Source: Myxococcota bacterium
Lineage (GTDB): Bacteria; Myxococcota_A; UBA796; UBA9615; JAKLKC01
Assembly: GCA_023150875.1 (NCBI GenBank)
Contig: JAKLKC010000017.1
Location: forward strand, 1 to 64,000
Length of the DNA stretch: 64,000 bases
Reading direction: 5' to 3'
This document shows positions 4,081 through 47,943 of this stretch, piece after piece. Within the stretch, counting starts at the first letter, position 1. Each line of letters begins with the position of its first letter. The notes beneath the pieces are model-generated. The model saw only the letters and a program-made list of their open reading frames with translations. It was not told the origin of the DNA and did not search any database. The translations under genes and the position numbers were made by a program.

Positions 4081-4137
4081 GCGGGCACGGGCCGGGCGAC
4101 GTGGACCTGGTCCGGCCCTTCCCCGTGAGGTGTCCGC

Positions 4138-25708: not shown

Positions 25709-26788
25709 TCACGCACCCTCGCCGTCTGAGACGCGGGCGCGGAGCTCTGGGCTCGCGAAGTACCGTGTGCCCGGACCACGGCCTCGACGGGTGACGAGCC
25801 CAGCGTCCAAGAGGCGCCGGAGGTCGGCGCTGGCGGAGGCCGGAGAGATCCCGGACTCATCGCAGAACGACGCGCGGTCGACACCGTGGAACAGGCTCTG
25901 CTCGAGGGCGATGGTGAGCCTGTCCGGCCAGCCGCGCAGCTCCACCAGCGCTTCGAGCGCGGCCCAACGGCGCGCAGCCCGATCCAGGGTGGCCAGCCGC
26001 TCGCGCGCCTGGACGCCGTGGGCCTCGATGCAGAACGTCAGCCAAGGGTCCGCGCTTCGTTCCGGTTGGTACCGACCCCCTTGGACCTCACGCAGGACGT
26101 CGTAGTACCGCCCGGTGTCCCGGGCCAAGTTTTCCTCGATGGAGCCCAGCTCCGGCGAGAGTACGCCGTCGCGGGCCAGGACCAGCGACTGGAGGATGCG
26201 GGACATGCGCCCGTTACCGTCGCGGAAGGGATGGATCGACACCAGGTGCAGGTGGGCCATGGCGGCGCGAACCTCCACGGGCACGTCGAGATCTCCCGCG
26301 GACAGCCAGTCCACCAACTCGGCAACGAGCGCCGGTACCCGGTCAGCCTCGGGCGCTCGGTAGGCGACACCGCCGCCCGGCTCCGTCACCCGGACCGGAC
26401 CCGTCCGCCAACGCCCGGGACTCCCCGAAGGGTCGCTCGCGCAGGCCTCGAAGTGCAGGTCCAGGAGCAGGCGGTCGGACCAGCCGAAGGATGGATCGTC
26501 GGCGAGCACAGCCACGTGCTGCATGGCCAGGGCGTAGTCGGCCACCGCTCGCTGGTCCCTGTCGGTCGCGGCGACTCGGCCCTCGACGACTGCGGACGCG
26601 ACCTCCGCCGAGACGTGGTAGCCCTCGATGGCGGTCGAGCTCCGCGCGGTGGCGGCGCTTGCCTGTCGGCGAAGCAGCCCCACCCAGGGGGTCGCCTTCG
26701 CCACCTGGTGACCCAGCCGGCGCCGGAGCTCTCCCAGCGCGGCGAGGGCAGCGAGATGCGGGCTGAGGTCCGGGATCCTGTACAGCAT
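25709..26788 (-). CDS. Fic family AMP transferase with built-in inhibitory helix and C-terminal winged helix
   Basis: 359 residues. The inhibitory motif S-T-A-I-E-G (residues 51-56; Glu55 would block ATP) is at the N-terminus, which makes this a class II Fic protein. The catalytic loop H-P-F-R-D-G-N-G-R is at 186-194, with His186 the base. Such enzymes usually move AMP from ATP to a hydroxyl of a target protein. The C-terminal ~60 residues (I-S-P-A-S-A-S-A-D-L-R-R-L, then G-L-V-T-R-R-G-R-G) form a winged helix that could bind DNA. The ATG at 26788 lies six bases after a perfect TATAAT, and a 32-bp palindrome covers both, so self-repression is likely. No separate antitoxin gene is seen. Confidence 0.93.
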   Translation of the reverse strand: MLYRIPDLSPHLAALAALGELRRRLGHQVAKATPWVGLLRRQASAATARSSTAIEGYHVSAEVASAVVEGRVAATDRDQRAVADYALAMQHVAVLADDPSFGWSDRLLLDLHFEACASDPSGSPGRWRTGPVRVTEPGGGVAYRAPEADRVPALVAELVDWLSAGDLDVPVEVRAAMAHLHLVSIHPFRDGNGRMSRILQSLVLARDGVLSPELGSIEENLARDTGRYYDVLREVQGGRYQPERSADPWLTFCIEAHGVQARERLATLDRAARRWAALEALVELRGWPDRLTIALEQSLFHGVDRASFCDESGISPASASADLRRLLDAGLVTRRGRGPGTRYFASPELRARVSDGEGA

Positions 26789-26817
26789 CAGACGATTATA
26801 CGTCTAATCGTCCGATG
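26786..26817 (-). promoter_or_regulatory. 32-bp near-perfect palindrome over the Fic promoter and start codon
   Basis: 14 of 16 base pairs match around the centre: CATC, A/C mismatch, GACGATTA, T/C mismatch, ACGT, then the mirror image. It contains the minus-strand -10 TATAAT (26800-26795). The ATG (26788-26786) starts six bases further on, so transcription would start at the ATG itself (leaderless). The -35 region is weak (TGGCAG at 17 bases), as expected for a regulated promoter. Confidence 0.7.
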
Positions 26818-31251: not shown

Positions 31252-32628
31252 TCACGGAGAGGCGAGCGCGAGCTGGTACGGACCGCCGCCAGGGCCGGCC
31301 GTGGAAACATAGAGGGTGTGGGGCCCGTCCTGGGTCAGGTCCGCCGACAGCGTCGCCGGCAGCCCTGCTCCCCCGCCCGCGCCTTCGGCGACGGGCGCGC
31401 AGTCCGGTCCGAGCAGCCAGATCCGCAGGTCCACGGTCGCCCCGGTCGCGGTGGCGGTCACCGCCTCCCCGGCCATCCCCGGGAACTCCCAGTCGTCCAG
31501 GGCGGCGTCGGGACCGGCGGGTCCGTCGTGGGCGTCGGACGCGCCCAGGGACCCATTCACGGTCTCGCCGTAGGCGAGGGTCGACGTCCGCCACCCGCAG
31601 GCGTCCCCCTCGGGCGGATCGCCGTCGAAGGCGGAGAGCACGTAGCTGCCGGTGCTCCCGGGCAGGGCCGTGGTGGCGACCACCGTGTAGACCCCGGCCG
31701 CGGGCGCGATGAACTCCAGTCGGTCGTCGTCGTCGTAGCCGGCCTGGATGTCCGCCGAGGTCGCCACCACCCCACACGCGCCGTCGAGCACCACGAAGTA
31801 GGGGTCGAAGGCGATGGAGCGCATCTGAAAGAGCACGGTGGTGCCTGCGGGGACCTCGATCTCCACGTCGTCGTAGCGGGATCCCTCCGGCGCGGGGGCG
31901 CCCACGGCGTCCGAGCCCGAGACCGAGAACTCCACCTCGCCCGGGAATGCCAGCACGTTGGTGTCGGCGAGGCACCAGCTCCCCACCGGGGGCGGCGGTG
32001 GCCCGTCGGTGCCGTCGCAGTCGCTGTCGAGTCCGTCGCCCGCGAGGTCCTCCGCCCCCGGCGCCACCGCGGGATCGGTGTCGTCGCAGTCGGGCCCGCC
32101 CCCGCCCGGGAACCCGTCCCCGTCGGCGTCGACGAGGTCGCGCCCGTCGCAGTCCTGGTCGACGCCGTCGTAGGCGACCTCCACCGCCCCGGGGGACACC
32201 GTGGGATCGGCGTCGTCGCAGTCTCCTCCGGCCTCCGACACGCCGTCCCCGTCGTCGTCGTGCAGGGTGGTGCCGTCGTCCACGACACCGTCGCAGTCGT
32301 CGTCCACCCCGTTCGCCGACTCCTCCGCCCCGGGGCTCACCGCGGGATCGGAGTCGTCGCAGTCCTCGGGCGCCGGGAACCCGTCCCCGTCGACGTCCGA
32401 GGGAGGGGGCAAGGTGTCGTCGTCCGCGGCGTCGTCGTCCGCGGCGTCGTCGTCCGCCGCGTCGTCGTCCGCCGCGTCGTCGTCCGCGGCGTCGTCGTCC
32501 GCGGCGTCGTCGTCCGCGGCGTCATCGTCGGGCCGCAGAACCCCCTCGCAGCCCGGCAGGTACAGGGCAGTGGCGAGCGCGAAGATCGCGGAGACGGCCC
32601 GGACGGGTTGGGACGGGAGGCGATCCAC
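31252..32628 (-). CDS. Asp-rich lipoprotein with MopE repeats and two PPC-like domains (paralogue)
   Basis: 458 residues. GTG start. Its ribosome site (TAGGAGG) is built on the stop codon of the giant gene upstream, nine bases away, so the two are tightly coupled. Lipobox L-Y-L-P-G-C near residue 27, then seven D-D-D-A-A units, three or four MopE repeats (E-D-C-D-D-S-D-P-A-V-S-P-G-A), and two PPC-like domains with V-Y-T-V-V-A-T-T. Same architecture as the next gene. The tether differs in sequence (Ala-Ala for Ala-Ser), so the two diverged after duplication or the repeats expanded separately. Confidence 0.88.
   Translation of the reverse strand: MDRLPSQPVRAVSAIFALATALYLPGCEGVLRPDDDAADDDAADDDAADDDAADDDAADDDAADDDAADDDTLPPPSDVDGDGFPAPEDCDDSDPAVSPGAEESANGVDDDCDGVVDDGTTLHDDDGDGVSEAGGDCDDADPTVSPGAVEVAYDGVDQDCDGRDLVDADGDGFPGGGGPDCDDTDPAVAPGAEDLAGDGLDSDCDGTDGPPPPPVGSWCLADTNVLAFPGEVEFSVSGSDAVGAPAPEGSRYDDVEIEVPAGTTVLFQMRSIAFDPYFVVLDGACGVVATSADIQAGYDDDDRLEFIAPAAGVYTVVATTALPGSTGSYVLSAFDGDPPEGDACGWRTSTLAYGETVNGSLGASDAHDGPAGPDAALDDWEFPGMAGEAVTATATGATVDLRIWLLGPDCAPVAEGAGGGAGLPATLSADLTQDGPHTLYVSTAGPGGGPYQLALASP
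32416..32529 (-). repeat. 15-bp coding tandem repeat (D-D-D-A-A tether)
   Basis: Seven near-identical 15-bp units (plus-strand form GTCGTCGTCCGCGGC) encode the D-D-D-A-A tether. Comparable to the repeat at 31004 but with its own variant, which suggests local homogenisation. Confidence 0.8.
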
Positions 32629-32637
32629 GATGGCCTC

Positions 32638-35600
32638 CTAGAGCGCGACCCCGTCGCAGTCGTCGTCGGTGCCGTTGCCTATGACCTCGAGCTGGCCGGG
32701 GTTCACCAGGGCGTTGGCGTCGTTGCAGTCTCCACCGACCTCGCTGAAGCCGTCCCCGTCGTCGTCGTAGACCGACGTCCCTTCGTCCACCCGCCCGTCG
32801 CAGTCGTTGTCCTTGCCGTCCACCACCTCGGGCAGGCCGATCCGCACGTCGGGATCGGCGTCGTTGCAGTCCCCGGCCGCGTCCGTCACCCCATCGCCGT
32901 CGTCGTCGTAGTAGGCGGTCCCCTCGTCGACGGTCCCGTCGCAGTCGTCATCCGTCCCGTTGGCCAGTTCGGGGGCGTCGGGGTACGCGCCGGAGTCCAG
33001 GTCGTCGCAGTCTCCGCCCGCCGTGGTGTAGCCGTCGTGGTCCTGGTCCCCCGAGGCGCCGGGGATCACTCCGTCGCAGTCCCAGTCCAGGACCGGGCCG
33101 AGGTCGGGGGCTCCGGGGTGGATGTCGGGGTCCGAGTCGTTGCAGTCCCCACTCGCCTCGCTGTACCCGTCTCCGTCGTCGTCCCGGAGCGTGGTCCCCT
33201 CGTCGATGGCCCCGTCGCAGTCGTTGTCCACGAAGTCCGGCAGCTCCGGCGCGCCGGGGTATGCGGTGTCGTCCGAGTCGTCGCAGTCGCCCGCCCCCTC
33301 GGTGTAGCCGTCGTGGTCGTCGTCGGTGATGGAGGTGCCCTCGTCCACCTCGCCGTCGCAGTCGTTGTCGATCCCATCCTGGACCTCGACGGCGGAGGGG
33401 TGGATGGCGGCCGCCTGGTCGTTGCAGTCCCCGTCCAGCTCCGAGTACCCGTCCCCGTCGTCGTCGCTGCACTCGGTGCCGTCGTCGTCGGCGCCGTCGC
33501 AGTCCTCGTCCACGCCGTCGCAACGCTCGGCGGCGCCGGGGTGGACGTCGGGATCGGCGTCGTCGCAGTCGCCGCTGCACGCGGCGTAGCCGTCCCCGTC
33601 CAGGTCGAATCCCGCTCCCCCGGTGAACCCGCAGTCGTTCCCGTGGAGGGGCACCAGGATGGGGGCCCCCGTGCCACCCGAGAGCACGATCGCCAGGGTG
33701 TCCTCGTAGGGATCGAGGTCCGTGGGGGCGAAGCGGACCTTCATGTCGAACCGCCCGCCCAGGGGGATCTCCAGCGGGAGCCCCTGGGTCAACGAGACGG
33801 TGAACGGGAAGTCGCCCCCGTCCACGTAGACGTCGGCGACGGTGACGTCCAGCGATCCGTGGTTCTCCAGGGTCACCGTCGTCTCGGGGGCCTCGCCCAC
33901 CTCCACCGGCCCGAAGTCCACGACCTCCGGGACGACCTGGACCTCGGGGAGGCGGCCCGTGCCCCGGACCGTCATCGTCGTCGGCCCGCCCTCGTGGTTG
34001 AAGACCAGGTCCACCCGGTAGCTCTCGGACCCGCGGGGGGTGAACTCGACCTGGAAGGTCACGTCCTCGGCGGCGTCGAGGGCTCCCGAGGGATCGCCCA
34101 CGATGGCGAAGGCGCCGTCGTCGGGGTCCAGGACCGCGGAGACGACCTCGATGGCCGCCTCGCCGGGGTTGTCGATGTGGACGTCCCGGGTGACCGTCTC
34201 GCCCACCGCCACGACCCCGAAGTCCAGGGTGTCGGGGGTCAGGTGCACCGTCCCGGGGACCAGGTGGATGGTGGTGTTGTTGCACCCCGCCGCCGCCAGG
34301 CCCAGCCCGGCCGCCAGGAAGACGCTGGCCCCTCCCCCGAGGCGTCGCCGGGAGCGGGTCCGCGCCGCGCGGGCCAGGAGGAGGGTGGCCAGGGCGGCGG
34401 CGCCCGCGCTGACGGGATCCCCACCGGCCCCGCCGCAGGTGCAGGACTCCTCGGGGGGAGGCGTGGTGCCCCCGCCGTCGTCCTCGCAGCCCTCGTCGAT
34501 GGTCTCGTTGCAGTTGTTGTCGATCCCGTCGCAGTCCTCGACCGCGCCCGGGGCGGCGAAGGGCTGCGCGTCGTCGCAGTCCCCCTCGTCCTCGCTGTAG
34601 CCGTCCCCGTCGTCGTCGTGGCCCGCGGTGCCGTTGTCCACGACTCCGTCGCAGTCGTCGTCCACCCCGTTCAGGTTCTCGTCGGCGCCGGGGTGGGCCG
34701 AGGAGTCCCCGTCGTCGCAGTCCCCCTCGACCTCGCTGAACCCGTCCCCGTCGTCGTCGTAGTGGTCGGTGCCCTCGTCGACGATCCCGTCGCAGTCGTT
34801 GTCCACGCCGTCGGGGGCCTCCTCGTTGCCGGGGAAGACGTCGGGATCTCCGTCGTTGCAGTCCCCATCGTCCTCGCTGACGCCGTCGCCGTCGTCGTCG
34901 TAGGCGTCGGTGCCCTCGTCCACGAGCCCATCGCAGTCGTTGTCCACGCCGTCCTCGAGCTCCACCGCCCCGGGGAAGATCGCGGGGTTCCCGTCGTCGC
35001 AGTCGCCCCCCGCCTCGGTGTACCCGTCGCCGTCCCCGTCGACGTCGCCGCCGACCCCCTCGTCCACGACGCCGTCGCAGTCGTTGTCGATCCCGTCGGG
35101 GATCTCCGGAGCGCCGGGGTGCACGTCGACCATGGAGTCGTTGCAGTCACCCGCGTTCTCGCTGAACCCGTCCCCGTCGTCGTCGTAGTTCTCGGTGCCC
35201 TCGTCGATGGTCCCGTCGCAGTCGTTGTCCTGGAAGTCGGGGAGCTCCGGGGCACCGGGGTACACGGTGGGGTCGCCGTCGTCGCAGTCCCCGCCGTTCT
35301 CGGTGTAGCCGTCCCCGTCGTCGTCGGAGCCGACCCCTCCCGTGTCCACCACCCCGTCGCAGTCGTCGTCGATCCCGTTGTCGGGGACCTCCGGCATCCC
35401 GGGGTGGACGTCGGGGTCGGCGTCGTTGCAGTCGCCGGCCACCTCGTTGTACCCGTCGCCGTCGTCGTCGACGCACTCGGTCCCCTCGTCGATGGAACCG
35501 TCGCAGTCGTCGTCGACGCCGTTGCAGACCTCGGCCGCTCCGGGATGGACGTCCGCGTCCGCGTCGTCGCAGTCCCCGGCCTCCTCGGTGTAGCCGTCCC

Positions 35601-38046
35601 CGTCGTCGTCGTGGACGGGGGTACCGCCGTCCATGGTGCCGTCGCAGTCGTCGTCGATGCCGTTCCCCGGCACCTCGGGCGCCCCGGGGTACACGGTGGG
35701 ATCGGTGTCGAGGCAGTCGGTCCCCCCGGCGAAGTCCGCGGGGTAGCCGTCGCCGTCCACGTCGTTCAGGTCGGCACCACTGCAGTCCTCGTCCACGCCG
35801 TTGTAGGGGACCTCGCTCGCCCCGGGGTTGATCCCGGGGTTCACGTCGTTGCAGTCGGTGTAGTTGGCGACGTAGCCGGCCGGCGGCCCCGAGCAGCTCG
35901 CCGCCGCCACCGTGGCGTTGCCGTACCCGTCGCCGTCGGCGTCCAGGTAGTAGTTCACGCTCGGGAGCCCTTCGTCGACGATCCCGTCGCAGTCCTGGTC
36001 GATCCCGTCGCAGACCTCGGGGTTGCCGGGGAAGCGACCGGCGTCGGCGTCGGCGCAGTCGCCGCCGCACTCGCTGGCCCCGTCGCCGTCGTTGTCGGTC
36101 TCCAGGGGGTCCGGCACGCCGTCGCAGTTGTTGTCGGCCACCCCGTCGCAGACGTCGGGAGCGCTGGGGTGGACGTGGGGCTCGGTGTCGTCGCAGTCGT
36201 CGTCGTCGGCGTCGTAGCCGGGGGGCATCCCGTCGCAGGTCGTCACCCAGGATCCGGCGTCGCCGTAGCCGTCCCCGTCGGCGTCGGCGTACCAGGTCGC
36301 GAAGATCAGCCCGTCGTCCGCCGTGCCGTCGCAGTCCTGGTCGACGCCGTCGCAGACCTCGGCGGCGTTGGGTCGGATCGCCGGATCGGCGTCGTCACAG
36401 TCCCCGGCGCACGTGCTGTAGCCGTCCGCGTCGGCGTCGAAGCCGTCGTCCACGGTCCCGTTGCAGTCGTCGTCCACCCCGTTGCAGACCTCGACGCGGT
36501 CGGGGTTCACGTTGGGGTTCCCGTCGTTGCAGTCCCCCTCGCACGTGGTCCAGCCGTCGGCGTCCACGTCGAAGCCGTCGTCCGCGGTCCCGTCGCAGTC
36601 GTCGTCGATGCCGTTGCACACCTCGGCTCGGCCGGGGTTGATGGCCGCGTTCCCGTCGTCGCAGTCCCCCTCGCAGGTGGTCCACCCGTCCGCGTCGGCG
36701 TCGAAACCCTCGTCCACCGTCCCGTCGCAGTCGTCGTCCACCCCGTTGCAGGTCTCCGCCCGTCCCGGGTTCACGTTGGGGTTGGTGTCGTTGCAGTCCC
36801 CCTCGCAGGTGCTCCACCCGTCCACGTCCGAGTCGAAACCCTCGTCCACGACCGCGTCGCAGTCGTCGTCGACGAAGTTGCAGACCTCCGCGGCCCCCGG
36901 GTAGACCGAGGGGCTCCCGTCGTCGCAGTCCCCCTCGCAGGTCGTGTAGCCGTCCCCGTCGGCGTCGAACCCCTCATCGATGGCGAGGTCGCAGTCGTCG
37001 TCGACGTTGTTGCAGGTCTCGGTGGCGCCGGGGTGGACCCCGGGGGCAACGTCGTTGCAGTCCCCCTCGCACGTGGTCCAGCCGTCCCCGTCCAGGTCGA
37101 ACCCCTCGTCCACCACCCCGTCGCAGTCCTCGTCGACCCCGTCGCAGGTCTCGACGGCCCCGGGGCGCACCCCGGGATCCCCGTCGTCGCAGTCCCCGGA
37201 GCAGGAGGTCCAGCCGTCCCCGTCCAGGTCGAACCCGTCGTCGACGGTGCCGTCGCAGTCCTGGTCCACCCCGTCGCAGGTCTCGGTGGCCCCGGGCCGG
37301 ATCCCGGCGTCGCCGTCGTCGCAGTCCCCCTCGCAGGTGGTGTAGCCGTCCCCGTCGACGTCGAAGCCCTCGTCCACCACCCCGTCGCAGTCGTTGTCGA
37401 TGCCGTCGCAGACCTCGTGCATGACGGGGTTGAAGATCAGGGTCCGGCTGCTGAGGTCGTTGACGTCCGCCCCCCCGGTGAACTGCTCGAAGACCGGACA
37501 GTTGGCGTTGATGGGGGTCGCCGCCAGCGAGAGGTTGCTCTCGGAGACCTCGGGCCCCACCGCGCAGGTGACCCCGGCGAGTCCGTCCTGGGCGGTGATC
37601 CCGCCGGAGTAGTCCAGGGTGACCTGGCCCGAGGAGTAGACGGTGATGGCGAAGGTGTTGAGGTTGCTGGTCAACCTCTCCTTCACCGCGTTCCAGGTGA
37701 CCGACAGGCTGGTGCCGGAGTCGAGGTAGGAGACTACGCCCCCCGCGCCGGGGTCGAGGTCGTCCCAGAGCGCCGCCACGGCGGGCCGGTTCGAGATGCC
37801 GATGGCGTCGAAGTCGGAGTTCTCGACGCTGCTGGTGGAGCCGCCGCCGAAGGTCAGGTACCCGTTCGATCCGACGTACACGCTCTCGTAGCTCGTCCCG
37901 CACATGGGGAACGAGAAGCTGAGCGGCACCTCGGTATAGTCGTTGTCGCCGAGGAAGAGGTCGACGGCCCTCGCGGCAGGCGCCGCCAGCAACACCGCGA
38001 ACGCGACCGCGACCGCCTTCGGGAACCGCATCGTCTTGTGGGGCAC
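32638..38046 (-). CDS. giant MopE precursor with internal MYXO-CTERM-like signal and internal lipobox (short form)
   Basis: 1802 residues, GTG start after GGAGG (an ATG five codons in is possible). Order: signal peptide (ends A-R-A near 28); nidogen-like beta domain (about 30-215, V-Y-V-G-S-N-G-Y-L-T-F-G-G-G); 21 MopE repeats; S-C-T-C (Cys1202, Cys1204), TM helix, R-S-R-R-R. Then a second hydrophobic segment ends L-A-A-A-G-C (Cys1255). Two ASH/choice-of-anchor-D domains follow (L-T-P-D-T-L-D-F-G-V-V-A-V-G-E) and seven more MopE repeats. No start codon with a ribosome site lies between the two signals, so it is one chain. It may be cut into a sorted N-part and a 548-residue lipoprotein. First gene of an operon with the two Asp-rich lipoproteins. 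Confidence 0.92.
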   Translation of the reverse strand: MPHKTMRFPKAVAVAFAVLLAAPAARAVDLFLGDNDYTEVPLSFSFPMCGTSYESVYVGSNGYLTFGGGSTSSVENSDFDAIGISNRPAVAALWDDLDPGAGGVVSYLDSGTSLSVTWNAVKERLTSNLNTFAITVYSSGQVTLDYSGGITAQDGLAGVTCAVGPEVSESNLSLAATPINANCPVFEQFTGGADVNDLSSRTLIFNPVMHEVCDGIDNDCDGVVDEGFDVDGDGYTTCEGDCDDGDAGIRPGATETCDGVDQDCDGTVDDGFDLDGDGWTSCSGDCDDGDPGVRPGAVETCDGVDEDCDGVVDEGFDLDGDGWTTCEGDCNDVAPGVHPGATETCNNVDDDCDLAIDEGFDADGDGYTTCEGDCDDGSPSVYPGAAEVCNFVDDDCDAVVDEGFDSDVDGWSTCEGDCNDTNPNVNPGRAETCNGVDDDCDGTVDEGFDADADGWTTCEGDCDDGNAAINPGRAEVCNGIDDDCDGTADDGFDVDADGWTTCEGDCNDGNPNVNPDRVEVCNGVDDDCNGTVDDGFDADADGYSTCAGDCDDADPAIRPNAAEVCDGVDQDCDGTADDGLIFATWYADADGDGYGDAGSWVTTCDGMPPGYDADDDDCDDTEPHVHPSAPDVCDGVADNNCDGVPDPLETDNDGDGASECGGDCADADAGRFPGNPEVCDGIDQDCDGIVDEGLPSVNYYLDADGDGYGNATVAAASCSGPPAGYVANYTDCNDVNPGINPGASEVPYNGVDEDCSGADLNDVDGDGYPADFAGGTDCLDTDPTVYPGAPEVPGNGIDDDCDGTMDGGTPVHDDDGDGYTEEAGDCDDADADVHPGAAEVCNGVDDDCDGSIDEGTECVDDDGDGYNEVAGDCNDADPDVHPGMPEVPDNGIDDDCDGVVDTGGVGSDDDGDGYTENGGDCDDGDPTVYPGAPELPDFQDNDCDGTIDEGTENYDDDGDGFSENAGDCNDSMVDVHPGAPEIPDGIDNDCDGVVDEGVGGDVDGDGDGYTEAGGDCDDGNPAIFPGAVELEDGVDNDCDGLVDEGTDAYDDDGDGVSEDDGDCNDGDPDVFPGNEEAPDGVDNDCDGIVDEGTDHYDDDGDGFSEVEGDCDDGDSSAHPGADENLNGVDDDCDGVVDNGTAGHDDDGDGYSEDEGDCDDAQPFAAPGAVEDCDGIDNNCNETIDEGCEDDGGGTTPPPEESCTCGGAGGDPVSAGAAALATLLLARAARTRSRRRLGGGASVFLAAGLGLAAAGCNNTTIHLVPGTVHLTPDTLDFGVVAVGETVTRDVHIDNPGEAAIEVVSAVLDPDDGAFAIVGDPSGALDAAEDVTFQVEFTPRGSESYRVDLVFNHEGGPTTMTVRGTGRLPEVQVVPEVVDFGPVEVGEAPETTVTLENHGSLDVTVADVYVDGGDFPFTVSLTQGLPLEIPLGGRFDMKVRFAPTDLDPYEDTLAIVLSGGTGAPILVPLHGNDCGFTGGAGFDLDGDGYAACSGDCDDADPDVHPGAAERCDGVDEDCDGADDDGTECSDDDGDGYSELDGDCNDQAAAIHPSAVEVQDGIDNDCDGEVDEGTSITDDDHDGYTEGAGDCDDSDDTAYPGAPELPDFVDNDCDGAIDEGTTLRDDDGDGYSEASGDCNDSDPDIHPGAPDLGPVLDWDCDGVIPGASGDQDHDGYTTAGGDCDDLDSGAYPDAPELANGTDDDCDGTVDEGTAYYDDDGDGVTDAAGDCNDADPDVRIGLPEVVDGKDNDCDGRVDEGTSVYDDDGDGFSEVGGDCNDANALVNPGQLEVIGNGTDDDCDGVAL

Positions 38047-38088
38047 GACGCCTCCGACCGGGGGGCAGGAACCCGGTGCGTAGGCGGC

Positions 38089-38117
38089 ACTATAGCCGAG
38101 GTGACCGGTGAGGTCGA
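38089..38117 (-). promoter_or_regulatory. promoter of the short giant gene and its lipoprotein operon
   Basis: Minus strand: -35 TCGACC at 38117-38112, 17-base spacer, -10 TATAGT at 38094-38089. It lies in the 108-base gap between the two giant genes, so the downstream operon can be transcribed on its own. Confidence 0.5.
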
Positions 38118-38154
38118 TGCGGGTGCCGGGAGGGTGCGCCGCGGCCCCCCGAGC

Positions 38155-41100
38155 TCACTCGGCGACGCCGTCGCAGTCCTCGTCGACGCCGTTCCCCGGG
38201 ACCTCGGCGACGCCCGGGTTCACGGCCGCCACCGCGTCGTCGCAGTCGCCGCCCAGCTCGGTGAAGCCGTCGCCGTCGTCGTCGGAGACCGACGTGCCCT
38301 CGTCCACCCGGCCGTCGCAGTCGTTGTCCTTGCCGTCCGCGACCTCCGGGAGCCCGATCCGCACTGCGGGATCGCCGTCGTTGCAGTCCCCGGTCAGCTC
38401 CGACGCGCCGTCGCCGTCGTCGTCGTAGTAGTCGGTCCCCTCGTCGACCACGCCGTCGCAGTCGTCGTCCAGGCCGTTGGCGACCTCCGTCGCGCCCGGA
38501 TGGACGCTCGGATCGGCGTCGTCGCAGTCGCCCCCGGCGGTGGCGAAGCCGTCCCCGTCGGTGTCGGCCTCGGACCCCGGGATCACCCCGTCGCAGTCCC
38601 AGTCCACCGTCGGCCCGAGGTCGGGCGCCCCGGGGTGGACGGCGGGATCCGCGTCGTTGCAGTCGCCGGTGGCCTCGCTGAACCCGTCCCCGTCGTCGTC
38701 CCGGGTCGTCGTGCCCTCGTCGATGACGCCGTCGCAGTCGTTGTCGACGAAGTCGGGGAGCTCCGGGCCCCCGGGGAAGGCGCTGGGATCGGCGTCGTTG
38801 CAGTCGCCGGCCTCCTCGGTGTAGCCGTCCCCGTCGTCGTCGAAGTCCGGCGTGCCCTCGTCGACGTACCCGTCGCAGTCGTTGTCGATGCCGTCCTGCA
38901 CCTCGACCGCGTCCGGGTGGGCCAGGGGATCGCCGTCGTTGCAGTCCCCCTCGTCCTCGGACCATCCGTCCTGGTCGTCGTCCCGGCAGCGGGTGCCGTC
39001 GTCGGCGGTCCCGTCGCAGTCCTCGTCCACCCCGTCGCAGGACTCGACCGCCCCGGGGTGGACCTCGGGATCGGTCTCGTCGCAGTCCCCGGCGCAGGAG
39101 GCGTAGCCGTCGCCGTCCTCGTCGAACTCGCTCCCCCCCGAGAAGGAGCAGTCGTTCCCGTACAGGGGGATCAGCCGCGGGGCGAGGGACCCGTCGGAGA
39201 GCACCAGGACCAGGGTGTCGTTCTCGGCGACGTCCTCGGTCGGTGAGAAGCGGACCCTCACCTGGAACGAGTCCTCGGCGGCCACGTCGAGGGGGAGGCT
39301 CTCGCTGAAGAGGGCCGTGAAGGGGTAATCGCCCCCGTCGATGTACACGTCGGTCACGGTGACCACGATCTGCCCCTCGTTGGTCAGGGTGACGGTCCGC
39401 TCGGGGGCCTCCCCCACCGCCACCGGCCCGAAGTCCAGGACCTCGGGGTCGAGGCTGAGGGAGATCCGCCGGCCGGAGCCCCGGACGGTCATCAGGGTCG
39501 GGCCCCCCTCGTGGTTGATGACGAGGTCAGCGCGGTCGTTGTCCTCGGTGGTGGGGGCGAACTCGATCTGGATGGTCCGCTCGTCGTTGGGGTCGAGGGT
39601 GCCGGTGGCATCCCCCAGCACGGTGTAGGGCCCGTCGTCGGGGTTGAGGATGGCGGAGACGATCTCCACCGAGGACTCGCCGGTGTTGACGATGTGGACG
39701 TCCCGGGTGACCGTCGTACCCACCGAGACCAGCCCGAAGTCCAGGGTCTCGGGCGTCAGGCTGATCTCCGCCGGCGCGAGGCTGATGGTGGTGCGGCTGC
39801 ACCCCGTCGAGGCCAGCCCCACGGCAAGAAGGGCCGCGAGGGCGAGCCCCCGCCAGGAGGCTCCCCCGGAGCGACGGCGCCGGAAGGCAGCCAGGGCCAG
39901 CAGGGAGAGGGCCGCCGCGCCGCCGGAGAGGGGGACCGGGGACGACGCCGCGGAGCAGGTGCAGCCGTCGCTGGGGCCGTCGCCGAGGGAGGGGTCCTCT
40001 CCGCTGGGCTCCGCCTCGCCGCAGGTCTCGTCGATCTCCCCGTTGCAGTTGTTGTCCATCCCGTCGCAGTCCTCCACGGCCCCAGGGTAGACGAAGGGCT
40101 CGGAGTCGTCGCAGTCGCCCTCGTCCTCGCTCATGCCGTCCCCGTCGTCGTCGTACCCGTTCGTCCCCTCGTCCACGAGGCCGTCGCAGTCGTCGTCGAT
40201 GCCGTTGACGATCTCGTCGCCGCCGGGGTGCAGGCCCGGATCGGTGTCGTCGCAGTCCCCTTCCAGCTCGGAGTAGCCGTCGCCGTCGTCGTCGTAGCTC
40301 TCGGTGCCCTCGTCCACGTCGCCGTCGCAGTCGTTGTCCACGCCGTCGGCCTCCTCCTGGTTGCCGGGGAAGGCGTCGGCGTCGCCGTCGTTGCAGTCCC
40401 CGTCGCGCTCGGTGTACCCGTCGCCGTCGTCGTCGTAGCGGTCGGTGCCCTCGTCGATGATGCCGTCGCAGTCGTTGTCCACGCCGTCGGAGAGCTCCGG
40501 GGCGCCGGGGTAGACGACGGCGCTGGAGTCGTCGCAGTCGCCCCCGTCGGTGGCGGTGTAGCCGTCGCCGTCGTTGTCGACGTCGCCGGTGGTGCCCTCG
40601 TCCACGACTCCGTCGCAGTCGTTGTCGATCCCGTCGGCGAGCTCCGGCGCGCCGGGGTGGACCTCGGGCAGGGAGTCGTTGCAGTCGCCGCCCACCTCGG
40701 CAAACCCATCCCCGTCGTCGTCGGAGTTCGTGGTGCCCTCGTCGATGACCCCGTCGCAGTCGTTGTCCAGGACGTCGGGCAGCTCGGGGGCGCCGGGGTA
40801 GACGTCGGGGTTGTCGTCGTCGCAGTCCCCGCCGTTCTCGGTGTAGCCGTCCCCGTCGTCGTCCGTGCCCGCGCCGCCGACGTCCACCACCCCGTCGCAG
40901 TCGTCGTCGATCCCATTCTCCGGCACCTCGGCGTGGCCGGGGTGGATCTCGGGATCGGAGTCCGCGCAGTCGCCGGCGATCTCGCTGTAGCCGTCGCCGT
41001 CGTCGTCGTAGCACTCGGTCCCCTCGTCGATGGTCCCGTCGCAGTCGTCGTCGACGCCGTTGCAGACCTCGGTCGCTCCGGGGTGGACGGACGCCTGGCC

Positions 41101-44100
41101 GTCGTCGCAGTCCCCGCCGTTCTCGGTGTAGCCGTCGCCGTCCCCGTCTCCGTCCGCCGTGCCCTCCTCGACGAGGCCGTCGCAGTCGTCGTCGATGCCG
41201 TTGCCGGCGACCTCGGGGGCGCCGGGGTGGACCGCGGGATCGGTGTCGAGGCAGTCCCCGCCGCCGACGATGGTCGCGGCGTACCCGTCGGCGTCGACGT
41301 CCACCAGGTCGGTGCCGGAGCAGTCCTGGTCGATGCCGTCGTAGGGGATCTCCGGGGCGCCGGGGTAGATCGTGGCGACGGAGTCGTTGCAGTCGGTGTA
41401 GTCCAGCACGTAGCCCGCGGGCGCGCCGTCGCAGGTGGTCACCGTCTCCCAGGGGTTGCCGAAGCCGTCCCCGTCGGCGTCCCGCTGGTAGTTCGTGTAG
41501 ACCAGCGCCTCGTCCACCAGGCCGTCGCAGTCCTGGTCGATCCCGTCGCACAGCTCCGCGGCCCCGGGGTACCGGGTGGCGTCGGCGTCGGTGCAGTCGC
41601 CGCCGCACTCCGTGATTCCGTCCCCGTCGTGGTCGGTCTCCAGCGGATCCGAGAGGCCGTTGCAGTCGTTGTCCACCACCCCGTCGCAGATGTCGGCGGC
41701 CCCGGGGTGCACGTCGGGATCGGCGTCGTCGCAGTCGTCGTCGTCGGGATCGTAGCCCGGGGGCGCCCCGTCGCAGGTGGACACCGAGATCGAGGTGTCG
41801 CCCCATCCGTCCAGGTCGGCGTCGTAGTACCAGGTGATGTAGACGAGCCCCTCGTCGGCGACCCCGTCGCAGTCCTGGTCGATGCCGTCGCAGACCTCCC
41901 CCGCGCCGGGGTGGAGGGTGGGATCGGCGTCGTCGCAGTCGCCGGCACAGGGGGTGTAGCCGTCGGCGTCGGCGTCGAGCCCCTCGTCCACCGCGAGGTC
42001 GCAGTCGTCGTCCACGCCGTTGCACACCTCCGGCGCGCCGGGGTGGACGGTGGGGTTCAGGTCGTCGCAGTCCCCGGCGCACGAGGTCACGCCGTCGCCG
42101 TCGTGGTCGAAGCCGTTGTCGACGGTCCCGTCGCAGTCCTCGTCCACGCCGTCACACGCCTCGATCCGGGCGGGGTTGATGGTGGGATCGGCGTCGTCGC
42201 AGTCCCCCTCGCAGGTCGTCCAACCGTCGGAGTCCACGTCGAACCCGTCGTCCGCCACCCCGTCGCAGTCGTCGTCCACGCCGTTGCACGCCTCGGACGC
42301 TCCGGGGAAGGCGGCGGCGTTGGCGTCGTCACAGTCCCCCTCGCAGGTCGTGAAGCCATCCCCGTCCGTGTCGTACCCCTCGTCGGAGGCGCCGTCGCAG
42401 TCGTCGTCGATCCCGTTGCACGCCTCGGCCGCCCCCGGGTGCACCGCGGCGTCGGTGTCGGCGCAGTCCCCTTCGCAGGTCGTCCACCCGTCGAAGTCCG
42501 TGTCGAAGCCCTCGTCCACGACGCCGTCGCAGTCCTCGTCGACGAAGTCGCACGTCTCCATCGCCCCGGGGTGCACGGCGGCGTTCCCGTCGTCGCAGTC
42601 GCCGGCGCAGGTGGTGATCCCGTCGCCGTCGGCGTCGTGGCCCTCGTCCACGGCGCCGTCGCAGTCGTCGTCCATCCCATTGCACGCCTCGGCCGCCGCC
42701 GGGTTGACCGTGGGTCGGGTGTCGTCGCAGTCCCCCGCGCAGGTCGTGTATCCGTCGGCGTCGCCGTCGAAGCCGTCGTCCACGACGCCGTCGCAGTCCT
42801 GGTCGACCCCGTCGCAGACTTCGGTGGCCCCCGGGTGCGCGGCGGGATCGGCGTCGTCGCAGTCCCCCTCGCAGGTGGTGTATCCGTCGCCGTCCAGGTC
42901 GAAGCCGTCGTCGGCGGCGCCGTCGCAGTCGTCGTCGATCCCGTTGCACGCCTCGGCGGCGCCGGGGTTCACGAAGGCGTTGCCGTCGTCGCAGTCCCCC
43001 TCGCAGGTGGTGTACCCGTCGCCGTCGGCGTCGTAGGTCTCGTCGGTGGATCCGTCGCAGTCGTCGTCGATCCCGTTGCACGCCTCGGCGGCGCCGGGGT
43101 TCACCCCGATGGCGGCGTCGTCGCAATCCCCCTCGCAGGTGGTCCAGGTGTCGCCGTCGGCGTCGAAGCCCTCGTCGGTGGCCAGGTCGCAGTCGTCGTC
43201 GATCCCGTTGCACGTCTCGGTGGCCCCGGGGTTCACGCCAGGGGCCAGGTCGTCGCAGTCGCCGGCGCAGGTGGTGTAGCCGTCACCGTCCACGTCGAAG
43301 CCGTCGTCCACCACCCCGTCGCAGTCGTCGTCCACCCCGTTGCACAGGTCGGTGGCGGAGGGACTCACCCCCGGGGCGGCGTCGTCGCAGTCCCCCTCGC
43401 ACGTCGTCCAGCCGTCGCCGTCCAGGTCGAAGCCGTCGTCCACGACGCCGTCGCAGTCCTGGTCGATCCCGTCGCAGGTCTCGGCCGCGCCGGGGTGGAT
43501 CCCCGCGGCGCCGTCGTCGCAGTCCCCGGCGCAGACGGTGTAGCCGTCCCCGTCCAGGTCGAAGCCGTCGTCCACCACCCCGTCGCAGTCGTCGTCCAGG
43601 GCGTTGCACGTCTCGGGGGCGGCGGGGTTCACGGTGCCGCGGGTGTCGTCGCAGTCCCCCTCGCAGGTGGTCCAGCCGTCCCCGTCGGCGTCGAAGCCGT
43701 CGTCCACCACCCCGTCGCAGTCCTGGTCCACGTCGTCGCAGAGCTCGGTGGCCCCGGGGTAGACGCCGGGCTCGGCGTCGTCGCAGTCGCCCTGACACAC
43801 GCTGTACCCGTCGCCGTCGGCGTCGAAGCCGTCGTCGATGGTGCCGTCGCAGTCGTCGTCCACCCCGTTGCAGGTCTCGATCACCCCGGGGTTGACGAAG
43901 GGGTTGCCGTCGTTGCAGTCCCCCTGGCACACGGTGTACCCGTCGAGGTCGGCGTCGTAGCTCTCGTCGGTGGAGCCGTCGCAGTCGTCGTCGATCCCGT
44001 TGCACGCCTCGGTGGCGCCGGGGTTCACCCCGATGGCCGCGTCGTCGCAGTCCCCCTCGCAGGTGGTCCAGGTGTCGCCGTCCAGGTCGTAGCCCTCGTC

Positions 44101-47100
44101 CACGGCCAGGTCGCAGTCGTCGTCGTAGCCGTTGCACAACTCGGTCGCCCCGGGGTGGATCCCCGCCACGAGGTCGTTGCAGTCACCGTCGCAGGAGCTG
44201 TAGCCGTCCCCGTCCAGGTCGTGCCCCTCGTCGACGGTCCCGTCGCAGTCGTCGTCGATGGCGTTGCAGAACTCCGAGGCTCCGGGGTGGACGCTGGACA
44301 GGGTGTCGTCGCAGTCGCCGTTGCACGTGGTCCAGCCGTCGAGGTCGAGGTCGAAGCCGTCGTCCACCACCCCGTCGCAGTCCTGGTCCACGCCGTCGCA
44401 GGTCTCGGTGGCGCCGGGGCCGATGGCGGGGTCCGTGTCGTCGCAGTCACCGGTGCACGTGGTGTAGCCGTCGCCGTCGCCGTCGAAGCCCTCGTCCACC
44501 AGGCCGTCGCAGTCGTCGTCCCGGGCGTTGCAGTACTCGGTGGCCCCGGGGCGGACCGCGATGTCGTAGTCGTCGCAGTCCCCGTGGCAGGTGGAGTAGC
44601 CGTCGCCGTCGACGTCGAAGCCCTCGTCGATGACGCCGTCGCAGTCGTCGTCGACGTCGTTGCAGACCTCGGTGGCGTCGGGGTTCACCGCTGCGTCGGC
44701 GTCGTCGCAGTCCCCCCCGCAGAGGGTGAAGCCATCGCCGTCGAAGTCGATGTCGTCGTCCACCAGGCCGTCGCAGTCGTCGTCGATCCCGTTGCACGTC
44801 TCGATCGCCGCCGGGTTCACGTTGGCGTTCCCGTCGTTGCAGTCGCCTCCGCACACGGTGTAGCCGTCCAGGTCGGCGTCGAAGTTCTCGTCCACGGACC
44901 CGTCGCAGTCGTCGTCGAGGAAGTTGCAGGCCTCGACGGCGCCGGGGAAGATCCCCGCGGCGGCGTCGTTGCAGTCCCCCTCGCAGGTGGTCCAACCGTC
45001 CAGGTCGACGTCGAAGCCGTCGTCGACGGTCCCGTCGCAGTCGTCGTCCAGGAAGTTGCACGCCTCGCTCGCGCCGGGGTTGATGGCGGCGTTCCCGTCG
45101 TTGCAGTCGCCGGCGCAGGTGGTGTAGCCGTCCCCGTCCACGTCGAAGCCGTCGTCGACGGTCCCGTCGCAGTCGTCATCCACGCCGTTGCACGTCTCGG
45201 GGGCGGCGGGGTTCACCGCCACCGCGGCGTCGTTGCAGTCCCCCTCGCAGGTGGTCCAGCCGTCCCCGTCCAGGTCGAAGCCGTCGTCCACCACACCGTC
45301 GCAGTCGTCGTCGACGAAGTTGCACGCCTCGGCCGCGCCGGGGTTGATGGCGGCGTTCCCGTCGTTGCAGTCGCCGCCGCACGAGGTGTAGCCGTCCCCG
45401 TCCAGGTCGAAGCCGTCGTCCACCACACCGTCGCAGTCCTGGTCCACGCCGTCACAGGTCTCGGTGGCGCCGGGGCGGATGGCGGCGTTCGTGTCGTTGC
45501 AGTCCCCGGCGCAGGTGGTGTAGCCGTCGCCGTCCACATCGAACCCGTCGTCCACCACGCCGTCGCAGTCGTCGTCGATCCCGTTGCAGGCCTCTGCCCG
45601 GCCCGGGTTGATGTTGGCGTTGGCGTCGTCGCAGTCCCCCTCGCAGGTGGTCCAGGTGTCGCCGTCCAGGTCGAAGCCGTCGTCCACCGTCCCGTCGCAG
45701 TCGTCGTCGACGCCGTTGCACGCCTCCGCCTCGCCGGGGTTGACGTTGGCGTTGCCGTCGTTGCAGTCCCCCGCGCAGGTGGTCCAGCCGTCGGCGTCCA
45801 CGTCGAAGCCCTCGTCGACGTTGCCGTCGCAGTCGTCGTCGATGGCGTTGCAGACCTCCGTGCGCGTCGGGTAGATGGCGGGGTTCCCGTCCTGGCAGTC
45901 CCCCTCGCAGGTGGTCCAGGTGTCGCCGTCCAGGTCGAAGCCGTCGTCCACCACCCCGTCGCAGTCGTCGTCGACGAAGTTGCAGGCCTCCGGCGCGCCG
46001 GGGTAGACGGTCCCGTTGGTGTCCTGGCAGTCCCCCTCGCAGGTAGTCCAGCCGTCCCCGTCCACGTCGAAACCGTCGTCGACGGTCCCGTCGCAGTCGT
46101 CGTCGATGAAGTTGCACGCCTCGGCCGCCCCGGGGAACACGCCGACCGCGCCGTCGTTGCAGTCCCCCTCGCAGGTGGTCCAGCCGTCCCCGTCCACGTC
46201 GAACCCGTCGTCCACCGCCCCGTCGCAGTCGTCGTCGACGAAGTTGCACGCCTCGGCCGCGCCGGGGTGGACCGCGGCGTTCCCGTCGTTGCAGTCGCCG
46301 CCGCAGGAGGTGTAGCCGTCCCCGTCCACGTCGAAGCCGTCGTCCACCACCCCATCGCAGTCGTCGTCGGTGGCGTTGCAGGTCTCGGTGGCGCCGGGCC
46401 AGATGGCGGCGTTCCCGTCGTTGCAGTCCCCCTCGCAGGTGGTCCAGGTGTCGCCGTCCAGGTCGAACCCGTCGTCCACCACCCCGTCGCAGTCGTCGTC
46501 GATCCCGTTGCAGGTCTCGGCCCGGCCGGGGTTGATGGTGGGATCGCCGTCGTCGCAGTCCCCCTCGCAGGTGGTCCAGGCGTCGCCGTCCACGTCGAAG
46601 CCGTCGTCCACCGTCCCGTCGCAGTCGTCGTCGACGCCGTTGCAGGTCTCCGTGCGGCCCGGGTTCACGTTGGCGTTGCCGTCGTTGCAGTCCCCCTCGC
46701 AGGTGGTCCAGCCGTCGGCGTCGGCATCGAAGCCCTCGTCGGCGCTGCCGTCGCAGTCGTCGTCGATCCCGTTGCAGACCTCGGTGCGCGTCGGGTAGAC
46801 GGCGGGGTTCCCGTCCTGGCAGTCCCCCTCACAGGTGGTCCAGCCGTCCCCGTCCACGTCGAAGCCCTCGTCGACGGAGAGGTCGCAGTCATCGTCGATC
46901 CCGTTGCAGGTCTCCGCCGCCCCGGGGTTCACCCCGGCGGCGAGGTCGTTGCAGTCCCCCTCGCAGGTGGTCCACCCGTCCAGGTCGACGTCGTAGCCCT
47001 CGTCCACCACCGCGTCGCAGTCGTCGTCGATCCCGTTGCAGACCTCGGTCGCCCCGGGGCGGACGCCGGGATCGGTGTCGTCGCAGTCCCCGGTGCAGGT

Positions 47101-47943
47101 GTAGTACCCGTCGCCGTCGGCGTCGAAGCCCTCGTCCACCGTCCCGTCGCAGTCCTGGTCGACCCCGTCGCAGGTCTCGGCCTGGCCGGGGTGGATCGCC
47201 GCGTTCCCGTCCTGGCAGTCCCCCTCGCAGGTGGTCCACCCGTCCCCGTCGACGTCGAAGCCCTCGTCGACGACGCCGTCGCAGTCGTTGTCCGTGCCGT
47301 CGCAGACCTCGTGCATGACGGCGTCGAACTGGAGGGTGCGACCGGACAGGTCGTTGGAGTCGCCGCCCCCCGTGAACATCTCGAAGACCGGGCAGTCGGC
47401 GCCGATGGGCGAGGCCGCGGCCGAGAGGTTGGTCTCGCTGACGTTGGGGCCGATCCCGCAGGTGACGCCCGCGAGGCCGTCGGTGGCGGTGATCCCGCCG
47501 GAGTAGTCCAGGTCGACCCGACCGGAGGAGTAGATGGTGACGGCGAAGGTGTTGAGGTTGGTGAGGGTGCGCTCCTTGATGGCGCTCCAGCTCACCCGCA
47601 GGTTCGAGCCGCTGTCGGTGTACTCGACGGTGCCGCCCGCGGCGGGGTCCAGGTCGTCCCAGAGGGCCGCCAGGGCGGGTCGACTGGAGATCCCCGAGAT
47701 GTCGAAGTCGGCCGACTCGGTGGCGCTGGTGGAGCCGCCGCCGAAGGTGAGGTAGCCGTTCGACCCGACGTACACGGTGTTGTACGTCGTGCCGCACATC
47801 GGGAACGAGAAGCTGATGGGGACGGTGGCGTAGTCGTCGTTGCCGAGGACCAGCGTCACCGCCCGGGCGGAGGGGGCGAAGAGGACCGCGATCGCGCACA
47901 GGAAGGCGGCGATGGGATCGAGGGGACGACACCTGGTGCGCAT
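38155..47943 (-). CDS. giant MopE precursor with internal MYXO-CTERM-like signal and internal lipobox (long form)
   Basis: 3262 residues. ATG 47943 chosen for the GGAGA site and signal peptide (ends S-A-R-A near 29); the frame runs further upstream without a better start. Same order as its paralogue: nidogen-like domain (about 30-215), 54 MopE repeats, G-C-T-C (Cys2661, Cys2663), TM helix, R-R-R-R, second hydrophobic helix ending A-S-T-G-C (Cys2715), two ASH/choice-of-anchor-D domains, seven MopE repeats. The 13 repeats just before the sorting signal line up with those of the short form; the extra 33 or so sit further upstream. Predicted to bind much calcium or other metal at the cell surface. 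Repeats are so alike that assembly should be checked. Confidence 0.92.
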   Translation of the reverse strand: MRTRCRPLDPIAAFLCAIAVLFAPSARAVTLVLGNDDYATVPISFSFPMCGTTYNTVYVGSNGYLTFGGGSTSATESADFDISGISSRPALAALWDDLDPAAGGTVEYTDSGSNLRVSWSAIKERTLTNLNTFAVTIYSSGRVDLDYSGGITATDGLAGVTCGIGPNVSETNLSAAASPIGADCPVFEMFTGGGDSNDLSGRTLQFDAVMHEVCDGTDNDCDGVVDEGFDVDGDGWTTCEGDCQDGNAAIHPGQAETCDGVDQDCDGTVDEGFDADGDGYYTCTGDCDDTDPGVRPGATEVCNGIDDDCDAVVDEGYDVDLDGWTTCEGDCNDLAAGVNPGAAETCNGIDDDCDLSVDEGFDVDGDGWTTCEGDCQDGNPAVYPTRTEVCNGIDDDCDGSADEGFDADADGWTTCEGDCNDGNANVNPGRTETCNGVDDDCDGTVDDGFDVDGDAWTTCEGDCDDGDPTINPGRAETCNGIDDDCDGVVDDGFDLDGDTWTTCEGDCNDGNAAIWPGATETCNATDDDCDGVVDDGFDVDGDGYTSCGGDCNDGNAAVHPGAAEACNFVDDDCDGAVDDGFDVDGDGWTTCEGDCNDGAVGVFPGAAEACNFIDDDCDGTVDDGFDVDGDGWTTCEGDCQDTNGTVYPGAPEACNFVDDDCDGVVDDGFDLDGDTWTTCEGDCQDGNPAIYPTRTEVCNAIDDDCDGNVDEGFDVDADGWTTCAGDCNDGNANVNPGEAEACNGVDDDCDGTVDDGFDLDGDTWTTCEGDCDDANANINPGRAEACNGIDDDCDGVVDDGFDVDGDGYTTCAGDCNDTNAAIRPGATETCDGVDQDCDGVVDDGFDLDGDGYTSCGGDCNDGNAAINPGAAEACNFVDDDCDGVVDDGFDLDGDGWTTCEGDCNDAAVAVNPAAPETCNGVDDDCDGTVDDGFDVDGDGYTTCAGDCNDGNAAINPGASEACNFLDDDCDGTVDDGFDVDLDGWTTCEGDCNDAAAGIFPGAVEACNFLDDDCDGSVDENFDADLDGYTVCGGDCNDGNANVNPAAIETCNGIDDDCDGLVDDDIDFDGDGFTLCGGDCDDADAAVNPDATEVCNDVDDDCDGVIDEGFDVDGDGYSTCHGDCDDYDIAVRPGATEYCNARDDDCDGLVDEGFDGDGDGYTTCTGDCDDTDPAIGPGATETCDGVDQDCDGVVDDGFDLDLDGWTTCNGDCDDTLSSVHPGASEFCNAIDDDCDGTVDEGHDLDGDGYSSCDGDCNDLVAGIHPGATELCNGYDDDCDLAVDEGYDLDGDTWTTCEGDCDDAAIGVNPGATEACNGIDDDCDGSTDESYDADLDGYTVCQGDCNDGNPFVNPGVIETCNGVDDDCDGTIDDGFDADGDGYSVCQGDCDDAEPGVYPGATELCDDVDQDCDGVVDDGFDADGDGWTTCEGDCDDTRGTVNPAAPETCNALDDDCDGVVDDGFDLDGDGYTVCAGDCDDGAAGIHPGAAETCDGIDQDCDGVVDDGFDLDGDGWTTCEGDCDDAAPGVSPSATDLCNGVDDDCDGVVDDGFDVDGDGYTTCAGDCDDLAPGVNPGATETCNGIDDDCDLATDEGFDADGDTWTTCEGDCDDAAIGVNPGAAEACNGIDDDCDGSTDETYDADGDGYTTCEGDCDDGNAFVNPGAAEACNGIDDDCDGAADDGFDLDGDGYTTCEGDCDDADPAAHPGATEVCDGVDQDCDGVVDDGFDGDADGYTTCAGDCDDTRPTVNPAAAEACNGMDDDCDGAVDEGHDADGDGITTCAGDCDDGNAAVHPGAMETCDFVDEDCDGVVDEGFDTDFDGWTTCEGDCADTDAAVHPGAAEACNGIDDDCDGASDEGYDTDGDGFTTCEGDCDDANAAAFPGASEACNGVDDDCDGVADDGFDVDSDGWTTCEGDCDDADPTINPARIEACDGVDEDCDGTVDNGFDHDGDGVTSCAGDCDDLNPTVHPGAPEVCNGVDDDCDLAVDEGLDADADGYTPCAGDCDDADPTLHPGAGEVCDGIDQDCDGVADEGLVYITWYYDADLDGWGDTSISVSTCDGAPPGYDPDDDDCDDADPDVHPGAADICDGVVDNDCNGLSDPLETDHDGDGITECGGDCTDADATRYPGAAELCDGIDQDCDGLVDEALVYTNYQRDADGDGFGNPWETVTTCDGAPAGYVLDYTDCNDSVATIYPGAPEIPYDGIDQDCSGTDLVDVDADGYAATIVGGGDCLDTDPAVHPGAPEVAGNGIDDDCDGLVEEGTADGDGDGDGYTENGGDCDDGQASVHPGATEVCNGVDDDCDGTIDEGTECYDDDGDGYSEIAGDCADSDPEIHPGHAEVPENGIDDDCDGVVDVGGAGTDDDGDGYTENGGDCDDDNPDVYPGAPELPDVLDNDCDGVIDEGTTNSDDDGDGFAEVGGDCNDSLPEVHPGAPELADGIDNDCDGVVDEGTTGDVDNDGDGYTATDGGDCDDSSAVVYPGAPELSDGVDNDCDGIIDEGTDRYDDDGDGYTERDGDCNDGDADAFPGNQEEADGVDNDCDGDVDEGTESYDDDGDGYSELEGDCDDTDPGLHPGGDEIVNGIDDDCDGLVDEGTNGYDDDGDGMSEDEGDCDDSEPFVYPGAVEDCDGMDNNCNGEIDETCGEAEPSGEDPSLGDGPSDGCTCSAASSPVPLSGGAAALSLLALAAFRRRRSGGASWRGLALAALLAVGLASTGCSRTTISLAPAEISLTPETLDFGLVSVGTTVTRDVHIVNTGESSVEIVSAILNPDDGPYTVLGDATGTLDPNDERTIQIEFAPTTEDNDRADLVINHEGGPTLMTVRGSGRRISLSLDPEVLDFGPVAVGEAPERTVTLTNEGQIVVTVTDVYIDGGDYPFTALFSESLPLDVAAEDSFQVRVRFSPTEDVAENDTLVLVLSDGSLAPRLIPLYGNDCSFSGGSEFDEDGDGYASCAGDCDETDPEVHPGAVESCDGVDEDCDGTADDGTRCRDDDQDGWSEDEGDCNDGDPLAHPDAVEVQDGIDNDCDGYVDEGTPDFDDDGDGYTEEAGDCNDADPSAFPGGPELPDFVDNDCDGVIDEGTTTRDDDGDGFSEATGDCNDADPAVHPGAPDLGPTVDWDCDGVIPGSEADTDGDGFATAGGDCDDADPSVHPGATEVANGLDDDCDGVVDEGTDYYDDDGDGASELTGDCNDGDPAVRIGLPEVADGKDNDCDGRVDEGTSVSDDDGDGFTELGGDCDDAVAAVNPGVAEVPGNGVDEDCDGVAE

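Follow-up and report, generated by a model that had tools for sequence, protein, structure and literature searches.

We found that two tandem genes on the minus strand of the window, a 64,000-nucleotide stretch of DNA from a Myxococcota draft genome, each encode, within one uninterrupted open reading frame, a MYXO-CTERM-like sorting signal that lies in the middle of the chain and is followed by a lipobox. Our data suggest that each of these genes, referred to here as A and B, is the product of a gene fusion that yields one precursor, in which the two signals share an Arg cluster and from which the predicted cleavages by MrtX and by Lgt/LspA would release two surface or outer-membrane proteins. 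We put the probability of this reading at roughly 70%. The initial annotation of the window had proposed such a hairpin, with one chain giving two products, for A and B. This is still the best explanation, given split relatives in which the two halves touch and unrelated C-terminal parts that follow the same kind of junction, although the arrangement is not limited to two paralogues.

Both genes open with a signal peptide, followed by a weakly NIDO-like module (the Pfam NIDO match in A, E 3.7e-4, is below the cut-off) and a long run of MopE repeats, with 28 MopE stretches in A and 60 in B when scored over the whole proteins. The product of A (P0001) is 1802 amino acids long counted from a GTG, with the ATG at 38031 being the likely start; B starts with the ATG at 47943, and P0002 is the longer open reading frame, with 40 additional residues. 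A and B are 62% identical across the compared C-terminal region, and their junctions differ by several in-frame indels. The choice-of-anchor D model NF012200 gave domain scores of 70.9 and 79.6 bits, over its 45-bit cut-off. An AlphaFold model of the junction and ASH region, built with six sequences, contained two good Ig-like domains, for which the nearest solved folds were axonemal central-apparatus chains and CEP192 SPD-2 (ASH-type) chains; pLDDT at the junction was below 50 with no helices modelled there, and the hairpin topology rests on composition. Directly downstream of A and on the same strand is a further MopE-repeat open reading frame (31255-32637, minus strand), possibly in the same operon. 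The window also contains a 2017-residue frame with FG-GAP and MopE repeats that starts with a lipobox-like signal, LGFLVLAGC (4129-10179, plus strand), a Fic/DOC-domain protein (25712-26803, minus strand; E 8.6e-16), and a 1402-residue frame that fuses a protein kinase to an AAA ATPase, with a weak TPR match (54782-58987, plus strand).

Table 1. Features of genes A and B (positions in the window) and Lgt-like genes elsewhere in the genome (positions in their contigs).
Feature	Position	Strand	Remarks
Gene A	32638-38046	-	NIDO-like N-module, MopE block, internal MYXO-CTERM-like signal, lipobox, two ASH domains, second MopE block
A: C-T-C motif, Cys1202 and Cys1204	34435-34443	-	aligned with B; second Cys invariant in 21 fused proteins
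A: hydrophobic helix 1	34366-34413	-	best 14-residue hydropathy 2.02
A: Arg cluster RAARTRSRRR, predicted cytoplasmic turn	34342-34371	-	
A: hydrophobic helix 2, signal-peptide-like h-region, ends A-A-A-G	34285-34326	-	hydropathy 2.05
A: lipobox Cys1255	34282-34284	-	
A: lipoprotein half, 548 aa	32641-34284	-	two ASH/choice-of-anchor D domains and MopE repeats
Gene B	38155-47943	-	paralogue of A with far longer MopE block
B: C-T-C motif of internal MYXO-CTERM	39955-39963	-	TIGR03901 match 39871-39969
B: hydrophobic helix 1	39883-39924	-	hydropathy 1.94
B: Arg cluster RRRR	39871-39882	-	
B: hydrophobic helix 2, ends A-S-T-G	39802-39846	-	hydropathy 2.19
B: lipobox Cys2715, ATG numbering	39799-39801	-	
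B: lipoprotein half, 548 aa	38158-39801	-	domains as in A
Lgt-like genes L130-L132 (G000)	C33:91840-92565, C11:34171-34893, C115:17771-18508		

The junctions of A (ESCTCGGAGGDPVSAGAAALATLLLARAARTRSRRRLGGGASVFLAAGLGLAAAGC) and B (DGCTCSAASSPVPLSGGAAALSLLALAAFRRRRSGGASWRGLALAALLAVGLASTGC) have the same order, running from a C-T-C motif through a first hydrophobic helix, an Arg cluster and a second hydrophobic helix to a lipobox Cys, which lies 20-24 residues after the Arg cluster. Reading of the open reading frames and codons gave the signal order, the lipobox Cys (Cys1255 and Cys2715) and the 548-residue halves as the initial annotation had them. The MYXO-CTERM identity proposed for both proteins was borne out by the TIGR03901 model in the case of B, which matched in mid-protein (28.2 bits when the genome was scanned and 20.4 bits when the whole protein was scored, against a cut-off of 20). 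In A the signal fell under the threshold and TIGR03901 gave no match, though all three elements are present, and the assignment as MYXO-CTERM-like rests on alignment with B, in which the Cys, Arg and lipobox residues coincide, and on alignment with the family. Among the 28 TIGR03901 matches in this genome, 24 lie within approximately 15 residues of the protein end and four are internal; A and B depart from the C-terminal rule in that the lipoprotein half comes after the signal. The second signal has the parts of a bacterial lipoprotein signal, with the Arg cluster as n-region, helix 2 as h-region and A-A-A-G-C or A-S-T-G-C as lipobox, and it departs from the N-terminal rule for such signals since the lipobox stands in mid-chain without an internal start. 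Both lipoboxes are degenerate at position -3 (A and S), as are those of several free-standing homologues.

We searched 71 genomes of the source class with the junction and ASH region as query, re-classified the matches with an ASH model beginning at the lipobox, and called a locus fused if both Cys were present. This yielded 21 fused junctions, all from one class and distributed over 13 genomes, including four (L016, L073, L094 and L110) that the automatic lipobox filter missed and that were added by eye. Seven of the 21 are in this genome (A, B and one each on contigs C122, C158, C103, C2 and C134), and the other 14 are spread over 12 genomes of four further families of the class, so the internal order seen in A and B recurs in other genomes and is not confined to two paralogues. 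The N-terminal modules of the family vary (NIDO, FG-GAP, ThuA-like and others), the ASH half being the common part. In a search of 284 genomes of the phylum at E 1e-30, no match listed from outside the class begins at the MYXO-CTERM end of the model. A first contig scan with A and B as queries gave zero matches, and a scan with another fused clade as query gave five public records, four of them fused (CAMBIK010000243.1, BJHF01000073.1, CALQBK020000034.1 and JAUXQH010000137.1) and one split (PALY01000035.1). Two fused proteins of this myxobacterial family (L181 and L183) occur in metagenome-assembled genome records titled Klebsiella pneumoniae and Bifidobacterium breve, titles that are probably wrong.

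At 11 further loci, the MYXO-CTERM gene and the lipoprotein gene are separate and adjacent. Five of these pairs overlap by four bases (L057, L082, L085, L089 and L098), one overlaps by one base (L086), one is separated by a one-base gap (L072), and the remaining pairs are looser; L185 provides an additional four-base overlap beyond these five. Three loci that were automatically called split (L090, L093 and L126) were dropped by eye as not MYXO-CTERM-like. There are also 72 free-standing lipoprotein homologues. The initial annotation had taken conservation in A and B as an argument against both chance fusion and sequencing error. Chance is excluded for A and B because 19 further fused junctions exist, and error is excluded as well, but the relatives suggest that a real fusion of neighbouring genes did take place.

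Among the 21 fused proteins, A is 55% identical to B and the others 22-32%. In the 328-column alignment just five columns are invariant, and the second Cys of the MYXO-CTERM motif and the Cys of the lipobox account for two of them, an invariance that is partly by construction because the fused call demanded both Cys. Three Arg columns are nearly invariant, and the loop from the Arg cluster to helix 2 drifts freely in length and sequence, with 15-37 residues between the first Arg and the lipobox. All 21 have G, A or S at lipobox position -1, and none has Asp at +2, which is found in 8 of about 70 free homologues. Fused and split members are intermixed in the tree (e.g., the split pair of G246 stands beside four fused members of the same family). 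Parsimony requires 10 changes for the fused label, of which strongly supported branches force only one; the tree is compatible with the fused state having arisen once and does not date the fusion.

The same junction is found before other C-terminal parts. Three of the four internal TIGR03901 signals in this genome belong to ASH fusions, and the fourth (L138, G000:C123:30584-33679) combines a MYXO-CTERM signal, a lipobox, an Amidase_2 domain (E 1.9e-32) and more MopE repeats, with a junction that runs into the Amidase_2 domain through RLRRRPRGRRATLALLLGLAGC. In other genomes, a version without a lipobox, in which a signal-peptidase-I-like site (ALA-Q, GHA-Q or ASA-Q) follows the Arg cluster before a barrel/OmpA protein, is present at 11 distinct loci (L157, L168, L211, L213, L214, L216, L218, L219, L220, L221 and L225) and is widespread in the phylum. 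This count is derived from 10 rows called fused, in which L163 and L220 are the same place, with L168 and L218 added by eye. These loci probably represent the class of MXAN_5598, a protein known here from its published description. An OmpA-class match that aligns from the first query residue was also seen inside a 7322-residue open frame (G214:C81:138349-139335).

Lipoprotein signals have a cytoplasmic n-region, and their lipobox Cys comes to lie at the periplasmic face. According to PMC11980579, MrtX cleaves MYXO-CTERM proteins, needs the conserved Cys, leaves the Arg-rich tail cytoplasmic and works in E. coli. The fused chain fits an out-in, in-out hairpin because the cytoplasmic Arg tail and the cytoplasmic n-region coincide. 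We infer this membrane topology, both cleavages, the lipidation of both Cys and the partnership of the halves. We propose that A and B are translational fusions of a MopE-repeat surface protein with a MYXO-CTERM end and an ASH-MopE outer-membrane lipoprotein, both halves of which the ribosome would translate as one chain. Helix 1 would be a stop-transfer segment for Sec, leaving in the cytoplasm an Arg cluster with a double role as MYXO-CTERM tail and as positively charged n-region of the signal peptide that follows. Export via Sec would then resume at helix 2. The myxosortase MrtX would cut beside the MYXO-CTERM Cys, and Lgt/LspA would attach lipid to the lipobox Cys and cut there. The outcome would be two separate lipid-anchored proteins in a 1:1 ratio, probably outer-membrane partners as published for TraA-TraB. 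This genome contains a single MrtX-like gene, whose 125-bit match covers positions 22-233 of 238 and falls short of the cut-off of 180, along with an LspA gene (99.5 bits, above the cut-off) and three Lgt-like genes, the best of which scored 103 bits and all of which are under the TIGR00544 cut-off of 118.9. Lgt is suspected by the authors of PMC11980579 to be the MYXO-CTERM lipidating enzyme, and one of the three Lgt-like genes could encode this acyltransferase.

A fusion could also exist without full processing, in which case the helix pair would be a permanent two-helix anchor and the chain would stay whole, or one signal alone would still work. The helix pair and Arg loop would also make a good double-span anchor, both cleavages of A and B are predictions, and TraA, a MYXO-CTERM protein, partly reaches the surface without MrtX (PMC11980579). 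We consider this alternative unlikely, given that both Cys persist despite a freely drifting loop (with the selection caveat noted above), that in relatives each half has a gene of its own, complete with stop and start, and that lipobox residues -4 to -1 resemble those of free homologues.

It is considerably less probable that an internal translation start in helix 1 or the loop makes the lipoprotein half, either in addition or solely. Between the Cys motif and the lipobox, codon-by-codon reading found no ATG, GTG or TTG in A and a single GTG in B, which is seven codons ahead of the Cys and too late to start a signal peptide; the earlier statement that no start with a ribosome site lies between the signals holds for both genes. 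CTG codons are present but lack a Shine-Dalgarno (SD) sequence. Five of the 21 fused junctions, A and B included, have no ATG, GTG or TTG from -45 to -12 of the lipobox Cys, and a start with an SD match of at least four bases precedes the lipobox in 3 of the 21 fused proteins compared to 60 of 83 split or free lipoproteins (Fisher p 1.7e-6). Split relatives do use coupled starts, and plausible SD-linked codons are present in two fused relatives (L044, ATG at -18 with GGAGG; L106, GTG at -23 with GGAGG), while L049 and L043 have a suitably spaced ATG with no good SD. Internal initiation may occur in a few relatives such as L044 and L106 and is, from the sequence, no explanation for A or B. That a sequencing, assembly or chance artefact deleted a stop/start pair, as might be supposed from a 180-contig draft and from relatives that differ from the fused form by little beyond a frame change at the four-base overlap, is in practice refuted by the census of 21 diverged loci in 13 genomes (seven here) with amidase and OmpA versions besides, and a one-base error would spare the start codon, of which A and B have none.

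The midcut-by-XrtH signal serves exosortase H, and its model (NF033207), whose name implies a cut in mid-protein, gave a weak match over the B junction (E 0.032); membership was rejected, with 14.3 bits in B against a cut-off of 45 and no match in A. The closest published case is MXAN_5598 of Myxococcus xanthus, for which Guo, Haft and Wall (2025; PMC11980579) described an internal MYXO-CTERM signal, proposed processing of the N-terminal part and suspected a gene fusion. Like MXAN_5598, A and B have a large N-terminal part, an internal MYXO-CTERM signal and then a second envelope protein; in contrast to its beta-barrel and OmpA C-terminal part, theirs is an ASH and MopE lipoprotein whose second signal is a lipobox. 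In the available text of PMC11980579, we found no mention of a second signal peptide in MXAN_5598. The traA and traB genes overlap by four bases (PMC3325183), and this order of a MYXO-CTERM gene followed by the gene of an outer-membrane partner, with the four-base overlap, is repeated in five of our split relatives; traA-traB differs in that it comprises two open reading frames, has an OmpA-type partner and has no lipobox described (PMC3325183). A substrate of Haloferax ArtA resembles A and B in that an internal tripartite signal works off the C terminus, and differs in that the enzyme is an archaeosortase (Abdul Halim 2017, as cited in PMC11980579). A search for literature on internal lipoboxes, bacterial polyproteins and midcut-by-XrtH, most subscription papers being outside its reach, returned nothing relevant. 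An internal MYXO-CTERM signal with a suspected fusion is already published (PMC11980579), and the lipobox version, the shared-Arg hairpin, the series of split, four-base-overlap and fused forms, and the number and spread of cases appear to be new.

For the group as a whole, the evidence leans slightly towards a general class of bacterial polyproteins, in which a shared-Arg hairpin would join a surface protein to its partner at the outer membrane. Myxosortase would cut the hairpin on one side and LspA or signal peptidase I on the other, giving two envelope proteins in a 1:1 ratio from one round of translation, and the class would interconvert over evolution with four-base-overlap gene pairs. 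The junction allows a direct test of whether a single Lgt lipidates both the MYXO-CTERM Cys and the lipobox a few dozen residues from it. Such proteins will be mis-annotated by gene-calling and signal-prediction programs built on the assumption of one signal per end. For many MopE giants that otherwise defy interpretation, the fused and split homologues indicate physical partners. If our reading is true, bacteria make exported polyproteins in which two opposite sorting signals stand back to back.
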